Shown here: positions 1-7,325 of the stretch, piece by piece
How positions within the stretch are numbered: the stretch's first letter is position 1
Layout: each line of letters starts with the position of its first letter
NCBI GenBank assembly: GCA_035502855.1
Contig: DATJTX010000021.1
Coordinates: 186,001 to 250,000 of the forward strand
Length of the DNA stretch: 64,000 nt
Source of the DNA: Candidatus Baltobacteraceae bacterium
Lineage (GTDB): Bacteria; Vulcanimicrobiota; Vulcanimicrobiia; Vulcanimicrobiales; Vulcanimicrobiaceae
Direction: 5' to 3'
The notes under the pieces: model-generated
What the model saw: only the letters and a program-made list of their open reading frames with translations
Databases searched by the model: none
What the model was told of the DNA's origin: nothing
Position numbers and translations under genes: made by a program

Positions 1-1091
1 TCGGACCGCCGGCGATTCCCTATTATTTACCGCCCCCGCCGCCGGGTCCCAATTACATTTGGCAGCCCGGCTACTGGGCGTGGGATCCGGTGGACGGCTG
101 GTACTGGGTGCCCGGCACGTGGGTGCTGGCTCCGGCCGTAGGCCTGTATTGGACACCGGGCTACTGGGGCTGGAACAACGGCTACTACCGGTGGAATAAC
201 GGCTATTGGGGCCCGCAAGTCGGCTTCTACGGTGGCGTCAATTACGGCTACGGTTATTACGGCAACGGCTACAGCGGCGGCCAGTGGCAAGGGAACAACT
301 TCGCCTACAACACCGCGGTCTACACCAACGTCCCGACGAATCGCTACCACCACTATTACAATCGGGCGGCCGTGCGCTCGTGGACGAACCGTGTCAGTTA
401 CAACGGCGGCCCGCACGGCATCGACGCGCGCCCGACCGCAACCCAACAGAGCGCGTATTCGCATCGCCGTTTCGGCCCGACGAGCGTGCAAGTGCAGCAC
501 GCGAGCTACGCCAAGGCCGATCCGTCGCTGCGCTATAACACGAATCACGGCCGCCCGTCGATCGCGGCAGAGCAGCAGCCGTTCAGCGCGAGGCATACGC
601 CTCCGGGCGTCCGCGCGTCTGCAGTAACCGCGCATCGCGCCGCGCCCTCGACCGCGCATCGCGCCGCACCCTCGACCGCGCATCGCGCCGCGCCGTCGAC
701 CGCGCATCGCGCCGCACCGTCGACCGCGCATCGCGCCGCGCCCTCGACCGCGCATCGCGCCGCGCCCTCGACCGCGCATCGCGCCGCGCCCTCGACCGCG
801 CATCGCGCCGCGCCGGCAGCCGTGCATCACACGGCCCCCGCCGCAGTGCACCATGCGGCTCCGGTGCATCGGGTGATGTCGGCACCGGAACACCGCGCTG
901 CTCCGCCGGCGCACACCGCGTATCACGCGCCCGTTTCCCACGCTGCACCGGCGCAACATGCCTACCACCCGGCAGCGCGCGCTGCGCCGGCCTATCACCC
1001 CGCAGCGCGCCCGGCTCCACAGCGCGCAGCGGCGGCACATCCGGCTCAGCGCGCTGCTGCTCCGCATCCGCGGGCATCTCGCGCTCCCTAG
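1..1091 (+). CDS. WXXGXW-repeat (YXWGXW-type) secreted-type protein, 5' truncated
   Basis: The reading frame is open from base 3, so the true start and any signal peptide lie upstream of the window. The visible N-terminal part has several Trp/Tyr/Gly-rich repeats of the type PGYWAW, PGTWV and PGYWGW, followed by a Gly/Tyr/Asn-rich stretch. This is the signature of bacterial WXXGXW (BcpO-related/YXWGXW) repeat proteins, usually exported and of unknown function. The C-terminal half changes character to an Ala/His/Pro/Arg low-complexity tail that includes eight tandem 8-residue units. The stop codon overlaps the hisD stop on the other strand through a shared CTAG. A cell-envelope location is inferred from composition; no enzymatic motif is visible. 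Confidence 0.7.
   Translation, partial: GPPAIPYYLPPPPPGPNYIWQPGYWAWDPVDGWYWVPGTWVLAPAVGLYWTPGYWGWNNGYYRWNNGYWGPQVGFYGGVNYGYGYYGNGYSGGQWQGNNFAYNTAVYTNVPTNRYHHYYNRAAVRSWTNRVSYNGGPHGIDARPTATQQSAYSHRRFGPTSVQVQHASYAKADPSLRYNTNHGRPSIAAEQQPFSARHTPPGVRASAVTAHRAAPSTAHRAAPSTAHRAAPSTAHRAAPSTAHRAAPSTAHRAAPSTAHRAAPSTAHRAAPAAVHHTAPAAVHHAAPVHRVMSAPEHRAAPPAHTAYHAPVSHAAPAQHAYHPAARAAPAYHPAARPAPQRAAAAHPAQRAAAPHPRASRAP
630..821 (+). repeat. 8 tandem 24-bp units encoding AHRAAPST
   Basis: Eight in-frame 24-bp units run head to tail, each encoding Ala-His-Arg-Ala-Ala-Pro-Ser-Thr. They differ by only a few synonymous changes (CCC/CCG, GCG/GCA), and the last unit ends PAA instead of PST. Two degenerate copies (AVHHTAPA, AVHHAAPV) follow. 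The near-identity of the units suggests recent expansion and possible copy-number variation. Confidence 0.95.
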
Positions 1092-2311
1092 CGGCGCGCG
1101 AGCGCAGCTTGGCGGTGGGCGATAAGTCCCTCCGCCTGGGCCAGAATCGCCGCATCGTTCGCGATGCGGCGATTGACTTTTCCGAGGGATCGTTCGTACG
1201 TGCGCAGGGTGAGGAAATTCATGACCGAGAGACCCGACGAGAACCGTGCGGTGCCCCCGGTCGGGAGCACGTGATTCGGGCCGCTCCCGTAATCGCCGAA
1301 AACCTCGGCTGCACCTTCGCCGATGAAGAGCGTGCCGTAGGCCGTAAACCGGTCGGCCAATGCTTGCGCGCGCGATCCCTGCAGCGAGAGATGTTCGGGC
1401 GCGAGCCGGTTGCAGAACTCGGGTGCCTCACTGAGCGGCAGTACGATACATCCGCCGCGGCGCTCGAGCGAAGCACGTGCGGTTTGCGCGGTCGAGAGCG
1501 TGGCGAGCCGCGATTCGATCTTTGCTCCGACGGCCGACGCGAAGCAACGATCGTCGGTGACGAGCAGCGCTCGCGCGTCGTCGTCGTGTTCTGCCTGCGC
1601 CAACAGATCGACGGCGATCAGGTCCGCATCGGCATCCGCTGCAGCGACGATCGCGATCTCGGATGGCCCGGCGAGCGCATCGATTCCGCATTGCCCGAAG
1701 AGCGCGCGTTTGGCGGCGGTCACGTACGCGTTGCCGGGTCCGACGATGAGATCGACGCGCGGCACGCTGCGCGTCCCGTACGCCATCGCGGCGATAGCCT
1801 GTGCGCCGCCGAGTTCGAAGACGCGCTCGATGCCGGCAACATGGGCCGCGGCGAGCACTTCGCGGCCCGCCCGCGGCGTGCAGACGATCCGCTCGCCCAC
1901 GCCCGCCACCCGCGCGGGGATCGCGCCCATGAGCAGCGAGGACGGAAGCGGATGGCGACCGGCGGGCACGTAGATACCGGCCCGCTCCACCGCGACGAGC
2001 CGATGTCCCAGTTCCAAGTCGTCTTCGCGGATGCTTACGTCGGCGATCGCGGCACGCTGCGCACGGGCGAAGCGTTCGATGCGCGCCGCAGCGCCCTCGA
2101 GCGCGCTGCGCAGATCGCCGCCCGCCTCGGAAAATGCGCGCGAGATCTCGCGTGATTCGATTTGGCGCGGGGCCGGATCGCCGAATTGCGCTGCGAGTTC
2201 GGTCAGCGCGTCATCGCCGCGCGCGCGCACGGCGGCGAGGATCGGCTCGACGTCGATCGGCTCGCGCGAAGGGCTTGGTGCAAGCACCTCGTCCGGCGTG
2301 CGCTCGATCAT
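1088..2311 (-). CDS. hisD: Histidinol dehydrogenase
   Basis: HisD catalyses the last two steps of histidine synthesis, the NAD-dependent oxidation of histidinol to histidine through the aldehyde, using zinc. The protein is 407 aa, a normal length. Visible family motifs include the GPGNAYV nucleotide-site segment, PSEIAIV, the zinc-ligand segment QAEHD, the catalytic Glu-His pair in APEHLSL, and GDYGSGPNHVLPTGG. An in-frame extension upstream is possible, but the chosen ATG overlaps the TGA of the preceding hisA-I-E fusion as ATGA. That fits the coupling seen across the operon and gives a family-like N-terminus. It is the last gene of the operon, and its stop shares a CTAG with the converging gene. 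Confidence 0.95.
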   Translation of the reverse strand: MIERTPDEVLAPSPSREPIDVEPILAAVRARGDDALTELAAQFGDPAPRQIESREISRAFSEAGGDLRSALEGAAARIERFARAQRAAIADVSIREDDLELGHRLVAVERAGIYVPAGRHPLPSSLLMGAIPARVAGVGERIVCTPRAGREVLAAAHVAGIERVFELGGAQAIAAMAYGTRSVPRVDLIVGPGNAYVTAAKRALFGQCGIDALAGPSEIAIVAAADADADLIAVDLLAQAEHDDDARALLVTDDRCFASAVGAKIESRLATLSTAQTARASLERRGGCIVLPLSEAPEFCNRLAPEHLSLQGSRAQALADRFTAYGTLFIGEGAAEVFGDYGSGPNHVLPTGGTARFSSGLSVMNFLTLRTYERSLGKVNRRIANDAAILAQAEGLIAHRQAALARR

Positions 2312-3534
2312 CGCGCCCTGGAAGCAAGCTGCGCCATCACGTCGTCGATACGAACGCCGGCTTGCTGCATACGAACCGAAAGAAAGTACAACAAATCTGC
2401 GCATTCCCAGGCGACCTCGTCGCGCGTGGCCGCTTGCGCCACTTCTTCGGCCTCCTCCAGCAGCTTCGCGCGTAGCAGTGCCGGATCGCGCAGAAGTTTG
2501 CGCGTATACGAGCGCTCGTCGCCGGTTCGCGCGCGCTGTTCGATGCGCTGCGCGAGCGTGCTCCACGAAAAGGCGGGTGTGCCAAAGCAGCGTTCGGCGC
2601 CGGTATGACAGGTCGGCCCCGACTGATCGACATAGAAGGTGAGCGCGTCGCGGTCGCAATCGAGATCGACGCGCACCAGTCGCTGCGTCGCGCCGGAAGT
2701 TTCGCCCTTGCGCCAGAGCGCGCGGCGTCGCCGGCTAAAGTAGACGCCGACGCCGTCGCGCAGCGCCGAGCCGAGCGATTCGCGTGAAGAATATGCCAGC
2801 ATGCGCACGCCTCGATCGCCGCTGTCGCACACGACGGTCGGTATCAAGCCGTCCCCCTTGGTGAAATCCAGCAGCGCGAGAACCGCTTCGACGGGGTCGA
2901 TGCGCCCGGTATAGAGCGCCATCCCGACCTGCGCATCGATTCCCAAACGATCGAGCGCGACGATCTCGTCGATTGCGGTGATGCCGCCGGCGATCGTCAA
3001 CGAACCCTCGATGCGCGCTCGCAGCGCCTCGGCGGAGGCGAGATCGATGCCGCCGAGCAATCCCTCGCGCTCGATATCGGTGTAGAGAAAGCCGGCGCAA
3101 TAGGGCTGCAAGCGCAGCGCGCGATCGAGCGGTGTCTCGTCCGTTTGCGTGCGCCAGCCTTCGACTGCCACGCGGCCGGCGCGCGCGTCGAGCGCGACGA
3201 GGACGCGTTCGCGCGGAAGTGCTTCGAGGAATTCGGGCGTTGCGGCGGTGCCGACGATCAACGACGCCGCGCCCCCGCGTAGATAGCGCTGCGCGCGCTC
3301 GAGGTCGCGAATACCGCCGCCGACGCGGCACCGTGCGAGGCGGCAGAGCCGCAAGATCAGCTCGGTGTTCTCGCCCTCGCCGAACGCCGCGTCGAGATCG
3401 ATCACGGCGATCTCGCCGAAGCGTCCAAAACGCTGCGCGAGTTCGACCGCGTCGTCGACTTCGAGCACCTGACGCCGGCCTTGTTCGAGCTGCACGGCTT
3501 TCCCGCCGCGCAAATCGATGCTGGTGACGATCAC
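2308..3534 (-). CDS. hisA: Trifunctional HisA-HisI-HisE fusion
   Basis: One uninterrupted 408-aa frame contains three histidine-pathway enzymes. Residues ~1-223 are HisA (ProFAR isomerase, TIM barrel) with the catalytic-type aspartates at 7 (SIDLRGGK) and 116 (ALDARAG). Residues ~224-318 are HisI (PR-AMP cyclohydrolase) with LWRKGETSG, the metal-binding DxDxD at 290-294 and CHTG at 309-312. Residues ~322-408 are HisE (PR-ATP pyrophosphatase), with LLEEAEEV and an ECADLLYF helix. HisI-HisE fusions are common, but adding HisA at the N-terminus is unusual. The GTG start overlaps the hisF TGA (GTGA); an upstream ATG would overlap hisF by 34 bp and add a non-family leader. All catalytic signatures look intact, so three activities are inferred. 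Confidence 0.93.
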   Translation of the reverse strand: MIVTSIDLRGGKAVQLEQGRRQVLEVDDAVELAQRFGRFGEIAVIDLDAAFGEGENTELILRLCRLARCRVGGGIRDLERAQRYLRGGAASLIVGTAATPEFLEALPRERVLVALDARAGRVAVEGWRTQTDETPLDRALRLQPYCAGFLYTDIEREGLLGGIDLASAEALRARIEGSLTIAGGITAIDEIVALDRLGIDAQVGMALYTGRIDPVEAVLALLDFTKGDGLIPTVVCDSGDRGVRMLAYSSRESLGSALRDGVGVYFSRRRRALWRKGETSGATQRLVRVDLDCDRDALTFYVDQSGPTCHTGAERCFGTPAFSWSTLAQRIEQRARTGDERSYTRKLLRDPALLRAKLLEEAEEVAQAATRDEVAWECADLLYFLSVRMQQAGVRIDDVMAQLASRAR

Positions 3535-4283
3535 GCGCGAACCTCGAGTCCGCGCGCGCGGCACACGTCCTTGACGTCGCGCGGACGGGCATCATCGTCG
3601 TGAAAGATCGACGCGCCTAGCGCCGCGTCGGCTCCGGCCTCTAAGACGTCGGCGAAGCTTTGCGCATCCGACGCGCCGCCCGATGCAACGACCGGTACGT
3701 TCACGTTGCCGCGAACTGCGCGCACGAGGTCCAAATCGAAGCCTTCGCGGCCGCCGTCGCGATCGATCGAGGTGAGCAGCACTTCGCCGGCGCCGAACTC
3801 CTGCGCCTCACGCGCCCAGGTCACGGCATCGCGCGCCTGCGGACGGGTGGCGCTGTGCGTGGCGATGGCATAGCGCTCCCCGGAGCGATACGCATCGATC
3901 GAGATTACGATGCACTGCGAGCCGAAGCGCGAGGCGGCCTGCGCCAGCAGCGCCGGCTGCTCGAGCGCCGCGCTGTTGATCGCGACCTTGTCGGCGCCCG
4001 CATCGAGCAGCCGCGCGACATCGCCGATTCCGCGCACGCCGCCGCCGACGGTAAGCGGCACGTCGAGCGCCGTCGAGATCGATTCGATGGTGCGCAGATT
4101 CGCAAGACGCGATTCGAGCGTCGCCGAAACGTCGAGCACGACGATTTCGTCCACGCCATCGTCCCGATAGCGCCGTGCGCGCTCGACCGGGTCGCCGGCT
4201 TCGCGCAAATTGGCGAAGCGTTGCCCCTTCACCACCCGTCCGTCGCGGATATCCAGGCAGGCGATGATGCGTTTAGCGAGCAT
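3531..4283 (-). CDS. hisF: Imidazole glycerol phosphate synthase cyclase subunit
   Basis: HisF is the cyclase half of IGP synthase. It uses ammonia passed from HisH to turn PRFAR into imidazole glycerol phosphate and AICAR. The 250-aa (βα)8 barrel is the usual length. It begins MLAKRIIACLDIRDGRVVKG, carrying the first catalytic aspartate in CLDI; the second lies in VISIDAY. The phosphate-binding GGGVRG and ASGGAS segments are present. It overlaps hisH by 11 bp upstream and the hisA-I-E fusion by 4 bp downstream, so the synthase subunits are encoded next to each other. Confidence 0.96.
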   Translation of the reverse strand: MLAKRIIACLDIRDGRVVKGQRFANLREAGDPVERARRYRDDGVDEIVVLDVSATLESRLANLRTIESISTALDVPLTVGGGVRGIGDVARLLDAGADKVAINSAALEQPALLAQAASRFGSQCIVISIDAYRSGERYAIATHSATRPQARDAVTWAREAQEFGAGEVLLTSIDRDGGREGFDLDLVRAVRGNVNVPVVASGGASDAQSFADVLEAGADAALGASIFHDDDARPRDVKDVCRARGLEVRA

Positions 4284-4887
4284 ACGCCACCGCTGCCGAG
4301 TCTACGAACGTACGCAAGAGCCGCGCACCGTATGCGCCGCTGCGTTCGGGGTGGAATTGCACGCCGAGCGCGCAGCCGCGCAGACCTGCGCTGGCAAAGC
4401 AGTCGTTGCCGTCGGAAGAGCTTGCGATCGCATCGGGCGCGTCGGCGTCGGGCGCATACGAGTTCGCAAAATACCCATAACCGGGTTCGATCGCCGCGCA
4501 GCACGCGCAGGGTTCGACGCGGTTCCAACCCATGTGCGGCACGCGCGGCGTGCGTAGAAGCCGCACGTTTCCGCTGAAGATGCCCAGCCCGCGGGCGCCC
4601 GGAGCTTCGTCGCTGGTTTCGAACAGCAGTTGAAAACCGACGCAGATGCCCAGGAGCGGCAGTCCGGCGGCCCACGACTCGAGGAGCGCGGTGCGCAATC
4701 CGGTGCGATCGAGTTCAGCGGCCACGTAGCCGAAGTGCGCGACGCCCGGGATCACCAGCGCATCGCAGGCAAAGACGGCGCCCGGCTCGGTGACGGAGTG
4801 CGTCTGCGCGCCGGCGCGCTGCAGCGCTGCGGCGATGCTGCGCCGATTGGCGGCCCCGAGCGCGACGATGCCGACGGTGGGTTTCAA
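4273..4887 (-). CDS. hisH: Imidazole glycerol phosphate synthase glutaminase subunit
   Basis: HisH hydrolyses glutamine and channels ammonia to HisF. The 204-aa protein shows a class I amidotransferase triad: Cys82 in LLGICVGFQLLF, and His179 and Glu181 in VQFHPERS. The start is a TTG whose last two bases overlap the TGA of hisB (TTGA), giving MKPTVGIVALG, which matches the family N-terminus. The longer in-frame extension upstream is Arg-rich antisense-like sequence and was rejected. The usual GNLRS segment near the N-terminus is altered to AANRRS. Confidence 0.94.
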   Translation of the reverse strand: MKPTVGIVALGAANRRSIAAALQRAGAQTHSVTEPGAVFACDALVIPGVAHFGYVAAELDRTGLRTALLESWAAGLPLLGICVGFQLLFETSDEAPGARGLGIFSGNVRLLRTPRVPHMGWNRVEPCACCAAIEPGYGYFANSYAPDADAPDAIASSSDGNDCFASAGLRGCALGVQFHPERSGAYGARLLRTFVDSAAVAYAR

Positions 4888-5468
4888 ACCAAGAGCCCTT
4901 TGGTCGAGGCGACACCTGCGAAGCGGCCATCGAGACTCCACGCGGCCGCGCAGGCGCGGCCAAGCGCTTTGAACGCCGCCTCGGCGAGGTGATGCGGATC
5001 TTCGCCGGCGAGGCGATCGAGGTGAATCGTCGCGCGCGCGTTGGCGGCAAGCGTTCCGACGACGTGCGGAATCATGACGGTTTCGAGATCCTCGATTCGT
5101 TCCGCGCGCAAATCGAGCGCGGTGCGCGCGTAGATGCGGCCGCCCAGATCGACCGCGCAACGAACCAGCGCGTCGTCCATCGGCAGTGTGACCGCGCCGT
5201 ACCGCGCGATGCAAGAGCGATCCCCAAGCGCATCGTCGAGCGCGCCCCCGAGGACGATTGCGACGTCTTCGATCAGATGATGGCGAATCGCGTCCAGCGA
5301 CCGCGCCTCGACCTCGAGCCCCGCACGGGCGTGAAACGCGAACGCGCCCAGCAGGTGATCGAGCATCACGATTCCGGTCTCGACCCGAACGCTCGGTTCG
5401 CCATCGAGCGCGAGAGAAACGCGAACGCTGGTCTCGCTGGTTTGACGTTGACGCGCCGCGCTACGCAT
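4884..5468 (-). CDS. hisB: Imidazoleglycerol-phosphate dehydratase
   Basis: HisB dehydrates IGP to imidazole acetol phosphate using two manganese ions. The monofunctional 194-aa form is encoded, without the HisB-N phosphatase domain found in enterobacteria. Both halves of the duplicated fold carry their metal-binding signature: IRHHLIEDVAI and DPHHLAEAAFKAL. The chosen ATG overlaps the end of hisC by 8 bp and leads into the family-typical ETSVRVSLALDG. Because no phosphatase domain is fused, histidinol-phosphatase must be supplied elsewhere. The PHP-domain protein near the end of the window belongs to a different PHP family and is not an obvious candidate. Confidence 0.95.
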   Translation of the reverse strand: MRSAARQRQTSETSVRVSLALDGEPSVRVETGIVMLDHLLGAFAFHARAGLEVEARSLDAIRHHLIEDVAIVLGGALDDALGDRSCIARYGAVTLPMDDALVRCAVDLGGRIYARTALDLRAERIEDLETVMIPHVVGTLAANARATIHLDRLAGEDPHHLAEAAFKALGRACAAAWSLDGRFAGVASTKGLLV

Positions 5469-6546
5469 AGACGACCTCGGCGGCGATTTCGCGCAGCGCC
5501 CGTACCACCGTATCGGTGGCTTCGTCGGTGGTTGCGCACAGGCGCAGCATGCCGGCAAGCATCGGATCCTCGAAGGTGCGCACGGCGATGCCGCGTGCCG
5601 CGAGCGCGTCGCGAATGACGGTTGCGCGCGCGCCGCAGTCGGCGAGCAAGAAGTTGGCGGGGCCGCGCCAGATCTCGCGCGCGAACGGAGCGAACGCATT
5701 TTCGAAGGCGTCGAGGCTGCGTGCCGTCTGGGCTTCCAAACGCGTTTCGAAGGCGCGCGTGCGCGCGGGGTCGCGCAGGTACGCCTGCGCCGCAATCAAG
5801 CTGAGCGCGCCGGCCGGATACGGCCCGATACAGCGCCGCAGGGCGGCTGCCGTCGCCGGTGCGGCCAGCGCGTAACCCAACCGCGCGCCGGCCAGCGATG
5901 CGCACTTCGAGAACGAGCCGGTGACGACGACGTTCTCGAACGCAAGCGCGTCGCGCGCGAGCGAACGGTCGGAGAAGGCCAGATAGACTTCGTCGATCAC
6001 GATGAGCGCCTCGGGCAAGGCGCGTGCGACCGCGGTGAGATCGCCGGCGCGCAGCGGATCGGTCGTCGGGTTGTTCGGGTGTCCGAGAAAGACCAGACGC
6101 GTGCGATCGTCGGCCGCTTCGATCAACTGCAAGGGTTCGAAGCGCCAGCGCGCCGGATACGGTACGCGCCGCAGCTGCGCGCCGGTGAGCGTCACGACGC
6201 GGGGATACATCCCGAACGAGGGCGCGCTGCACAGCGCGGTATCGCCCGGATCGAGCGCGATGCGCGCGCAGGCGGCGAGAAGTTCGTCGGCGCCGTTCCC
6301 GAGGACGACGGCGGTTGCCTCGCGCGAGAAGCGCGCGGCGATGCGTTCGCGGACTTCGGCTTGCAGCTCGGTCGGATAGGTGCGTAACGATTCGCCGTCG
6401 ATGGCGCGAATCGCGTCGAGCACGAACTCGGGCGGCGGCAGCGCGCCCTCGTTGCGGTGCAGACGAATGGCGATGCCGCGATCGGAGAGATCGCGCGGAT
6501 CGTAGTCCGGGAGCGCCTCGATCGCTCGGCGCAAGGGCAGACTCAT
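5461..6546 (-). CDS. hisC: Histidinol-phosphate aminotransferase
   Basis: This PLP-dependent class I/II aminotransferase converts imidazole acetol phosphate to histidinol phosphate. The 361-aa protein has the expected LHRNEGALPPP start region, the GNGADELL cofactor segment, the HPNNPTT motif, VIDEVYLAF, and the Schiff-base lysine in GSFSKCASLAGARLGYA. Its ATG overlaps the hisG TGA (ATGA). The neighbouring divergent gene is a RidA-family enamine deaminase, a class of protein that protects PLP enzymes from reactive intermediates. Confidence 0.94.
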   Translation of the reverse strand: MSLPLRRAIEALPDYDPRDLSDRGIAIRLHRNEGALPPPEFVLDAIRAIDGESLRTYPTELQAEVRERIAARFSREATAVVLGNGADELLAACARIALDPGDTALCSAPSFGMYPRVVTLTGAQLRRVPYPARWRFEPLQLIEAADDRTRLVFLGHPNNPTTDPLRAGDLTAVARALPEALIVIDEVYLAFSDRSLARDALAFENVVVTGSFSKCASLAGARLGYALAAPATAAALRRCIGPYPAGALSLIAAQAYLRDPARTRAFETRLEAQTARSLDAFENAFAPFAREIWRGPANFLLADCGARATVIRDALAARGIAVRTFEDPMLAGMLRLCATTDEATDTVVRALREIAAEVVYA

Positions 6547-7139
6547 ACGTTGGCCTCCAAGACCGCCAGGTCGCTCGTGGTGATGACGGTCTTGACGTCG
6601 AGGTCGAGTTCCTCGATGGTCTTTCCGGTGACGACCACGTCGATCATGAAGTCGGCCACGTCGTGCAGCAGCGTCGCCTCGACCGTGCCCGAGATCGCGA
6701 CCGGAGCGATCCGCAACCCCGGCCGCTCGAGCGAGAGGAGGTAGCGCCGTGCGAGGTTTTCGTATTTCGCGCAGAGCGCGACCCGCACGTCGCCTTGCGC
6801 CGGAAGCTCGAGGTTGCGCGGACCGATCAGGCAGAGCGCGGGTTTGCCGTATCGCGCCGCCGGATCGTTCCACGGGATGCTGCGCCGGAGGATGCGCCGG
6901 TCGAGCGTACGCCCCGCGGCGAGCCATTCGTCGAGCAGATCTTCGCCGGTGAGCGCCAGGAGCGGACGGCCGCTGCGCGCGACTTCGTTCGCGAGAAGCG
7001 GAACGTCTTCGCCGCGTACGAGCGTGCGTTCGAACGCGCCGCGCGGCGCAGCGAGCGTGAGCGCGTACTCGGCCATCGCGGCCAGGCCGCGATTTTTCGG
7101 AACCAGCACCACCGTCGGCGGCGCATCGATCGTATTCAT
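6543..7139 (-). CDS. hisG: ATP phosphoribosyltransferase, short form
   Basis: HisG commits ATP and PRPP to histidine synthesis. At 198 aa it is the short form, lacking the C-terminal regulatory domain. Recognisable segments are KYENLARRYL and SGTVEATLLHDVADFMIDVV, which match the KYPNLT... and GSVE/D..D PRPP-binding regions of the family. The N-terminal half is divergent. Short HisG enzymes normally need HisZ, and no hisZ is in this window, so it must lie elsewhere or be dispensable. The ATG follows the U-tract of the attenuator terminator directly, and no Shine-Dalgarno sequence is visible. Confidence 0.87.
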   Translation of the reverse strand: MNTIDAPPTVVLVPKNRGLAAMAEYALTLAAPRGAFERTLVRGEDVPLLANEVARSGRPLLALTGEDLLDEWLAAGRTLDRRILRRSIPWNDPAARYGKPALCLIGPRNLELPAQGDVRVALCAKYENLARRYLLSLERPGLRIAPVAISGTVEATLLHDVADFMIDVVVTGKTIEELDLDVKTVITTSDLAVLEANV

Positions 7140-7140
7140 A

Positions 7141-7180
7141 AATAAAAAGATAAGAGGCCGCGGGCGGACCGCGACCTCTT
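7141..7180 (-). terminator. Intrinsic terminator of the his attenuator
   Basis: On the minus strand, arms 7180-7169 and 7163-7152 form a 12-bp GC-rich stem with one G-U pair and a 5-nt loop. The U-rich tract TCTTTTTATT (7150-7141) follows immediately. The hairpin lies between the His-rich leader peptide stop and the hisG start, exactly where an attenuator terminator is expected. The competing antiterminator helix was not resolved by eye. Confidence 0.9.
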
Positions 7181-7204
7181 CCTGAAACTGGCTAAAACTC
7201 AGGC

Positions 7205-7285
7205 TTACGTCAAACAGTCATCGCACGCGATTCGGCAGAATCCGTGATGATGGTGGTGGTGAACGTGCGCCTGGGCAAGTGACAT
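7205..7285 (-). CDS. hisL: his operon leader peptide (26 aa, seven His codons)
   Basis: ATG at 7285 to TAA at 7205 encodes 26 residues. Codons 7-14 read HVHHHHHH, seven histidines in eight codons. Stalling at these codons when charged tRNA-His is scarce would be the sensor of an attenuator. The leader is followed by a strong intrinsic terminator and then hisG. It is also placed only ~5 nt from the predicted transcription start, so it is essentially leaderless. The function is inferred from architecture that is well established for his operons of enteric bacteria. Confidence 0.93.
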   Translation of the reverse strand: MSLAQAHVHHHHHHGFCRIACDDCLT

Positions 7286-7296
7286 GGTGTTGTTGG

Positions 7297-7325
7297 GTTA
7301 TAACAGGCTGCGCCGGGGCTGTCAA
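7297..7325 (-). promoter_or_regulatory. his operon promoter, consensus sigma-70 type
   Basis: On the minus strand a perfect TTGACA -35 (7325-7320) is separated by 17 bp from TATAAC (7302-7297), a near-consensus -10. The predicted transcription start is near 7290, about 5 nt before the leader-peptide ATG. It lies 28 bp upstream of the divergent RidA gene. Confidence 0.85.

Follow-up and report, generated by a model that had tools for sequence, protein, structure and literature searches.

In the his leader of E. coli and Salmonella, a run of His codons pairs with a segment downstream of it and a terminator precedes the his operon. Leaders whose start codon lies at or next to the 5' end of the transcript have been described for other amino acids, as the accessible text of the sources cited here presents them. 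In S. meliloti trpLE(G), the ATG of a 14-aa Trp-sensing leader peptide coincides with the transcript 5' end (a 5' UTR of 0 nt) and control is by transcription attenuation (PMC7298713). The C. glutamicum ilvBNC attenuator has its +1 one nucleotide from the start codon of ilvL (PMC11857589), and S. lividans leuL, trpL and ilvL are leaderless leader ORFs in transcription attenuators (PMC8079986); in these actinobacterial cases the leader is followed by hairpins or U-rich terminators, and none of the 8 S. lividans leader peptides given in the accessible part of that report carries a His run. Mycobacterial leaderless sORFs with a run of Cys, the amino acid sensed, are described as acting through translation attenuation (PMC9031893, PMC13236596, citing Canestrari 2020). 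His-run attenuators beyond the Proteobacteria are described from Firmicutes (the B. cereus group, Peptostreptococcaceae and Erysipelotrichales), with leader peptides of 3-5 His codons (PMC9413887, PMC2965389) and with examples at hisS/hisZ of Bacilli (PMC2965389). As given in the accessible text of a 2010 survey, attenuators were known from Proteobacteria and Actinobacteria, the survey itself adding Firmicutes (PMC2965389). The his operons of C. glutamicum are leaderless, and the account available to us gives hisD no His leader peptide (PMC3896937).

The leader analysed here stands before hisG in a 64-kb stretch of DNA (the window) from an uncultured soil bacterium whose close relatives in named records are Candidatus Eremiobacterota MAGs. 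Our best reading, which we consider very probable, is that a ribosome translating a near-leaderless leader ORF controls the his operon by transcription attenuation. This reading is favored because the distance from promoter to AUG, the absence of a Shine-Dalgarno (SD) sequence, the His run and the terminator are kept in all nine leaders that we compared. The locus resembles the enteric his leader in its His run, in the pairing of its His codons with a downstream segment and in the terminator ahead of the his operon, and differs from it in its predicted near-leaderless AUG without an SD and in belonging to another phylum; we have no evidence for common descent of the two. With S. meliloti trpLE(G) and the actinobacterial leaders it would share a start codon at or near the transcript 5' end (predicted UTRs of 2-6 nt); like the polycysteine sORFs it repeats the codon of the amino acid that it is predicted to sense, and like the Firmicutes leaders it has an independent His run outside the Proteobacteria. 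The original prediction had called the locus unlike the enteric paradigm, which holds for the missing SD and the predicted near-bare AUG, although leaderless leaders had already been described for trp, ilv and leu. The proposed switch is therefore of a known type, of which it forms a new and well conserved member in a phylum for which we found no printed one: the open-access literature, in the portions available to us, yielded no report of a leaderless his leader or of any Eremiobacterota leader peptide.

Table 1. Features of the his leader and operon in the window.
Feature	Position	Strand	Basis or remark
-35 element, TTGACA	7325-7320	minus	17 nt 5' of TATAAC
Extended -10, TGT-TATAAC	7305-7297 (TATAAC 7302-7297)	minus	
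Predicted 5' UTR, ACACC, 5 nt	7286-7290	minus	+1 at A7290, from the position of the -10
His leader peptide ORF, MSLAQAHVHHHHHHGFCRIACDDCLT*, 26 aa + TAA	7285-7205	minus	translation
Control codons, His-Val-His6	7267-7244	minus	7 His in 8 codons
Protector (1:2) hairpin	7219-7252	minus	pairing of the last His codons with GUGCGAUG just after them; fold
Candidate antiterminator, 5' strand, GACUGU-UU-GAC	7209-7219	minus	nascent-RNA fold, ribosome on His codons
Candidate antiterminator, 3' strand, GUC-GCGGUC	7167-7175	minus	top of terminator 5' arm and loop
Intrinsic terminator	stem-loop 7180-7152, U-rich tract 7151-7144	minus	
hisG, divergent short ATP phosphoribosyltransferase, 198 aa	6543-7139	minus	PF01634, 45.6 bits (cut-off 25.5)
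hisC, hisB, hisH, hisF-type, hisA-hisI-hisE fusion ORF, hisD	1088-6927	minus	Pfam

The elements of a his leader were confirmed on the minus strand (Table 1). The original prediction had described a TTGACA-N17-TATAAC promoter, a leader ATG about 5 nt from the predicted transcript start, a 26-aa leader with seven His in eight codons and a strong terminator abutting hisG, and each of these was recovered. The promoter is the sole match to its pattern in the window, and a run of six CAY codons likewise occurs there once; 100 shuffles gave an expectation of 0.00 in both cases. The -10 deviates from consensus at its final base and is preceded by TGT, which makes it an extended -10; because of that departure at the last base, a stock promoter scan did not list the his promoter. 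Between the -10 and the ATG at 7285 lie 11 nt (CCAACAACACC), and the usual 6-nt gap after a -10 would place the start so as to leave a 5-nt UTR. The terminator has a 12-pair stem containing 8 G-C pairs, a loop of 5 and a T-rich tail, and the hisG ATG begins 12 nt past the stem. For the leader as a whole the predicted folding energy is -53.9 kcal/mol (z -4.6).

The P0002 search of 99 family genomes gave nine strong loci, including that of the window, plus twelve weak matches to other HisG-like genes, and a search of 149 phylum genomes with an alignment of seven such HisGs led to these nine loci again, which lie in 8 of the genomes. The leader was found at all nine: in the window, G001, G020, G056, G064, G065 and G066, and twice in G075. 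These nine distinct leaders represent eight genomes and five genera (g1, g4, g24, g31 and g34), each standing before the same divergent type of HisG. Since these HisG proteins are only 46-53% identical to that of the window outside its genus, the comparison spans real divergence. A search of the phylum with the promoter and His pattern also recovered all nine leaders, among many other matches, and three loci found through HisG in Candidatus Eremiobacterota MAGs (L023-L025) proved to be the G064 and G075 loci and were not counted again.

The promoter architecture is retained throughout this set. All nine leaders carry TGnTATA with a spacer of 17 or 18, eight have a -35 TTGAC (the exception, G001, reads TTGCAT), the distance from -10 to AUG is 9-12 nt in every case, and none has an SD-like core within 20 nt of the leader AUG. 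Because the extended -10, the closely following AUG and the lack of an SD are common to all nine, the predicted near-leaderless start is conserved. Placing the start in the relatives at the first A some 6-8 nt past the -10, we infer UTRs across the nine leaders of ACACC, ACU, ACAUC, AAC or AC, that is, 2-6 nt.

To what extent leaderless-type starts are used more widely was read from 216 rough gene calls in 324 kb of the window's contig (C21, of a 3.33-Mb genome). In 15 genes, against 4.7 expected, the last base of a TAnnnT lies 6-9 nt ahead of the start codon, a count that includes at least one chance match in that hisG is among the 15 and its TAnnnT is the terminator tail. SD-like cores precede 50 of the 216 genes, compared with 21 in a control interval. 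The strict pattern TTGAC...TGnTATA...ATG matched 12 times in 10 of 31 family genomes, with 7 of the 12 opening ORFs of at least 89 aa, and its reversed control gave 0. Because of the TAnnnT excess and the strict-pattern matches relative to these controls, starts of the leaderless type seem to be an ordinary minority in these genomes. The same near-consensus leaderless promoter was also seen in both genus-g1 genomes before a small zinc-ribbon-like protein (MPLYDYRC...; L090 in G000 and L081 in G001), which we take to be FmdB-like. When the genome to which the window belongs was searched for a leaderless Trp leader, there was one match, against two for the reversed control.

The -10 of the his leader lies up to 3 nt farther from its AUG than the genome's leaderless peak (a gap of 6-9), so that the start is better called near-leaderless than strictly leaderless. 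This slight excess, together with a +1 known by inference from the -10, lends something to the idea of a his attenuator that starts farther upstream, its leader being translated from an ordinary 5' UTR. We regard such an upstream start as unlikely, given that a near-consensus extended -10 is equally placed in all nine leaders, that eight of them keep the -35 TTGAC and that an SD-like core is missing from every one.

The original prediction had named loss of His codons from orthologous leaders as a finding that would count against it. The His run is instead kept in all nine, at 4-6 consecutive His, and in seven of them the leader AUG is the only in-frame AUG, GUG, UUG, CUG or AUU before it. A run of six His can bind metal, and a terminator would by itself reduce expression; one could accordingly picture a constitutive promoter with a partial terminator and a His-rich ORF encoding a metal-binding or otherwise functional peptide that senses nothing. 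Against this stands the pattern of conservation, for outside the His run the peptide is poorly conserved, the features retained being its position before hisG, the run itself and the complementary RNA. Furthermore, a five-His pattern had 15 matches in the 99 family genomes, and the 7 that fall outside these leaders are not leader-like. We therefore judge a functional peptide to be very unlikely indeed, and a His-sensing leader to be the better account of the ORF.

The terminator is present in all nine leaders, 18-37 nt beyond the stop codon, with a z of -4.8 to -8.8 in each. Across the six alignable leaders 97.2% of stem cells are paired, and 3 pairs have changed on both sides. A strong, U-tailed intrinsic terminator of this kind, with the hisG start outside its stem, speaks for transcription attenuation over a translation attenuation that masks the hisG start, which we consider very unlikely in spite of the precedent of the mycobacterial leaderless Cys leaders, for which an effect on translation is described (PMC9031893, PMC13236596, citing Canestrari 2020). 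The original prediction had added that hisG lacks an SD. This is correct for the window, but the eight other leader-bearing loci carry GAAAGG, GGAG, GAGGAG or AGGA before hisG, and the absence is thus a trait of this species alone rather than a conserved one.

The segment after the His run contains GUGC in all nine leaders and pairs with the last His codons, forming the protector hairpin. In a shuffle control this hairpin had a combined z of -4.8 over the nine, a statistic that counts related leaders as independent; in six of them at most 40 of 500 shuffles were as stable, and those of G001, G056 and one G075 leader (G075a) did not stand out singly. The choice of synonymous His codons did not appear optimized for the hairpin (combined p 0.19). 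An alternative in which the segment after the His run pairs with codons that precede the run was rejected as no better than shuffles (combined z +0.6, on the same count of relatives as independent).

The best Rfam family on a 221-bp stretch of the locus was the His_leader, RF00514, which aligned over its full length at 21 bits (cut-off 49; E 0.17); its alignment pairs the His codons with the downstream segment as does the window fold, and a terminator follows. The eight relatives' loci matched no family at its cut-off, and a relaxed search of those 26.5 kb gave no His_leader. A T-box or other ligand riboswitch upstream of hisG has precedent in that T-boxes govern his genes in Firmicutes and have been proposed in C. 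glutamicum, according to the accessible text of PMC9413887 and PMC3896937. Here, the leader ORF and the terminator nearly fill the leader, Rfam gave no T-box match at its gathering score, the 221-bp stretch had none even at E <=10, and we hold such a riboswitch to be most improbable.

The antiterminator is the part of the predicted attenuator that is least secure. In folds of the nascent RNA, GAYYGN-UU-GAC is predicted to pair with GUC-GCGRUY in six leaders (the window, G001, G056 and three from genus g31), with 52 of 54 cells paired (96.3%) in this register as opposed to 12-44% when it is slid. One of its 9 pairs shows a two-sided, compensatory change, and 32 of 500 shuffles reach the covariation score, in a control that again counts related leaders as independent. 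In G020 and both G075 leaders another register, closer to the His run, pairs 25 of 27 cells (92.6%), and here the fold surpasses those with the region shuffled (0/200, 0/200 and 2/200 as stable). In the six other leaders the fold did not clearly outdo its shuffled controls, 70 of 200 shuffles being as stable for the window. We consider the pairings credible as models, if statistically weak in the window. The attenuator had been predicted to be complete: this stands for promoter, leader and terminator, while the antiterminator is predicted and partly covarying. The covariance check proposed for it in relatives likewise produced consistent registers in six plus three leaders, but a single compensatory pair.

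From the sequence elements, their conservation and the covariation of the terminator, all directly observed, we infer the start site, the stalling and the switching of the following scheme. Transcription would begin a few nucleotides before the leader AUG, and the sensor ribosome would load on a nearly leaderless 5' end. When charged His-tRNA is scarce, the ribosome would stall on the His run (7267-7244) and block the 1:2 hairpin; the freed segment 7219-7209 could then pair with the top of the terminator 5' arm (7175-7167), allowing the polymerase to enter hisG. With ample histidine the ribosome would reach the UAA at 7207-7205 and cover 7219-7209, such that the terminator (7180-7152) forms. 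If there were no translation at all, the 1:2 hairpin should form and leave the terminator free.

The leader heads a complete his operon, with hisG, hisC, hisB, hisH, two PF00977 genes and hisD codirectional by Pfam. The ORF bounds are mechanical and the hisC frame overlaps the end of hisG; of the two PF00977 genes, we read one as hisF and the other, which is fused to hisI-hisE domains, as hisA. Content and order of the his genes are identical in the G064, G056, G075 and G020 stretches. The apparent HisA-HisI-HisE fusion (2308-3564, minus strand), a single ORF matching PF00977, PF01502 and PF01503, aligned in G064 and G056 across nearly all of its length. Of the two hisG copies in G075, the second (L022, G075:C81) has a shifted N-terminal frame relative to its relatives and an intact leader; its sequence suggests a pseudogene or an assembly error.

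The HisG of the window is divergent also by TIGR00070, scoring 49.3 bits against a cut-off of 75.75. HisZ activates short HisG and mediates its inhibition by histidine, as described in the accessible text of PMC9734150. PF13393 had one match in each of the eight leader genomes, the number that HisS by itself would give; in many genomes with a canonical HisG, of which G081 and G077 are examples rather than part of a full tally, another and stronger match lies immediately ahead of hisG. Because of this single match per leader genome, the divergent 198-aa HisG seems from its genomic context to be without a HisZ partner, and it is our conjecture that the attenuator stands in for HisZ. Of 30 canonical hisG loci, 20 were read, and none of these had a His-rich ORF within 350 nt upstream. 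Separately, an order-level search with PF01634 detected no HisG in 46 of 103 genomes, including the near-complete G009 and G018, for which auxotrophy or a still more divergent HisG is possible.

A second leader of leaderless type was observed at L089 (G086; about 1380-1545, minus strand), where a near-consensus promoter has a start some 8-11 nt past its -10. The leader ORF, MPNAASFLAMCMCCLPRPGVG*, is followed by a U-tailed hairpin, recognized by eye, and precedes an NMT1-like substrate-binding protein. Homologous Cys leaders (MCMCC, MCICC, MSMCC or similar, with an ATG or GTG start) occur in 9 of 11 genus-g37 genomes (L111-L119), the exceptions being G089, with no match, and G090, with a match elsewhere. 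This leader looks like a cysteine attenuator.

We tentatively suggest, giving it somewhat less than an even chance, that attenuators with a near-bare 5' end recur in the Eremiobacterota, in a His form ahead of his operons that lack HisZ and, independently, in a Cys form at the g37 NMT1-like genes, and that the His attenuator takes on the histidine feedback supplied by HisZ in relatives whose HisG is of the ordinary type. The his leader adds a phylum to the list of the 2010 survey, as that list is given in the accessible text of PMC2965389. Its nine versions form a natural series in which ribosomes starting at a near-bare 5' end would have to do so quickly and regularly enough for a terminator to be timed by them, and they bear on how leaderless initiation keeps up with the polymerase. 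If the link to HisZ is true, control by RNA would here substitute for a lost allosteric partner.
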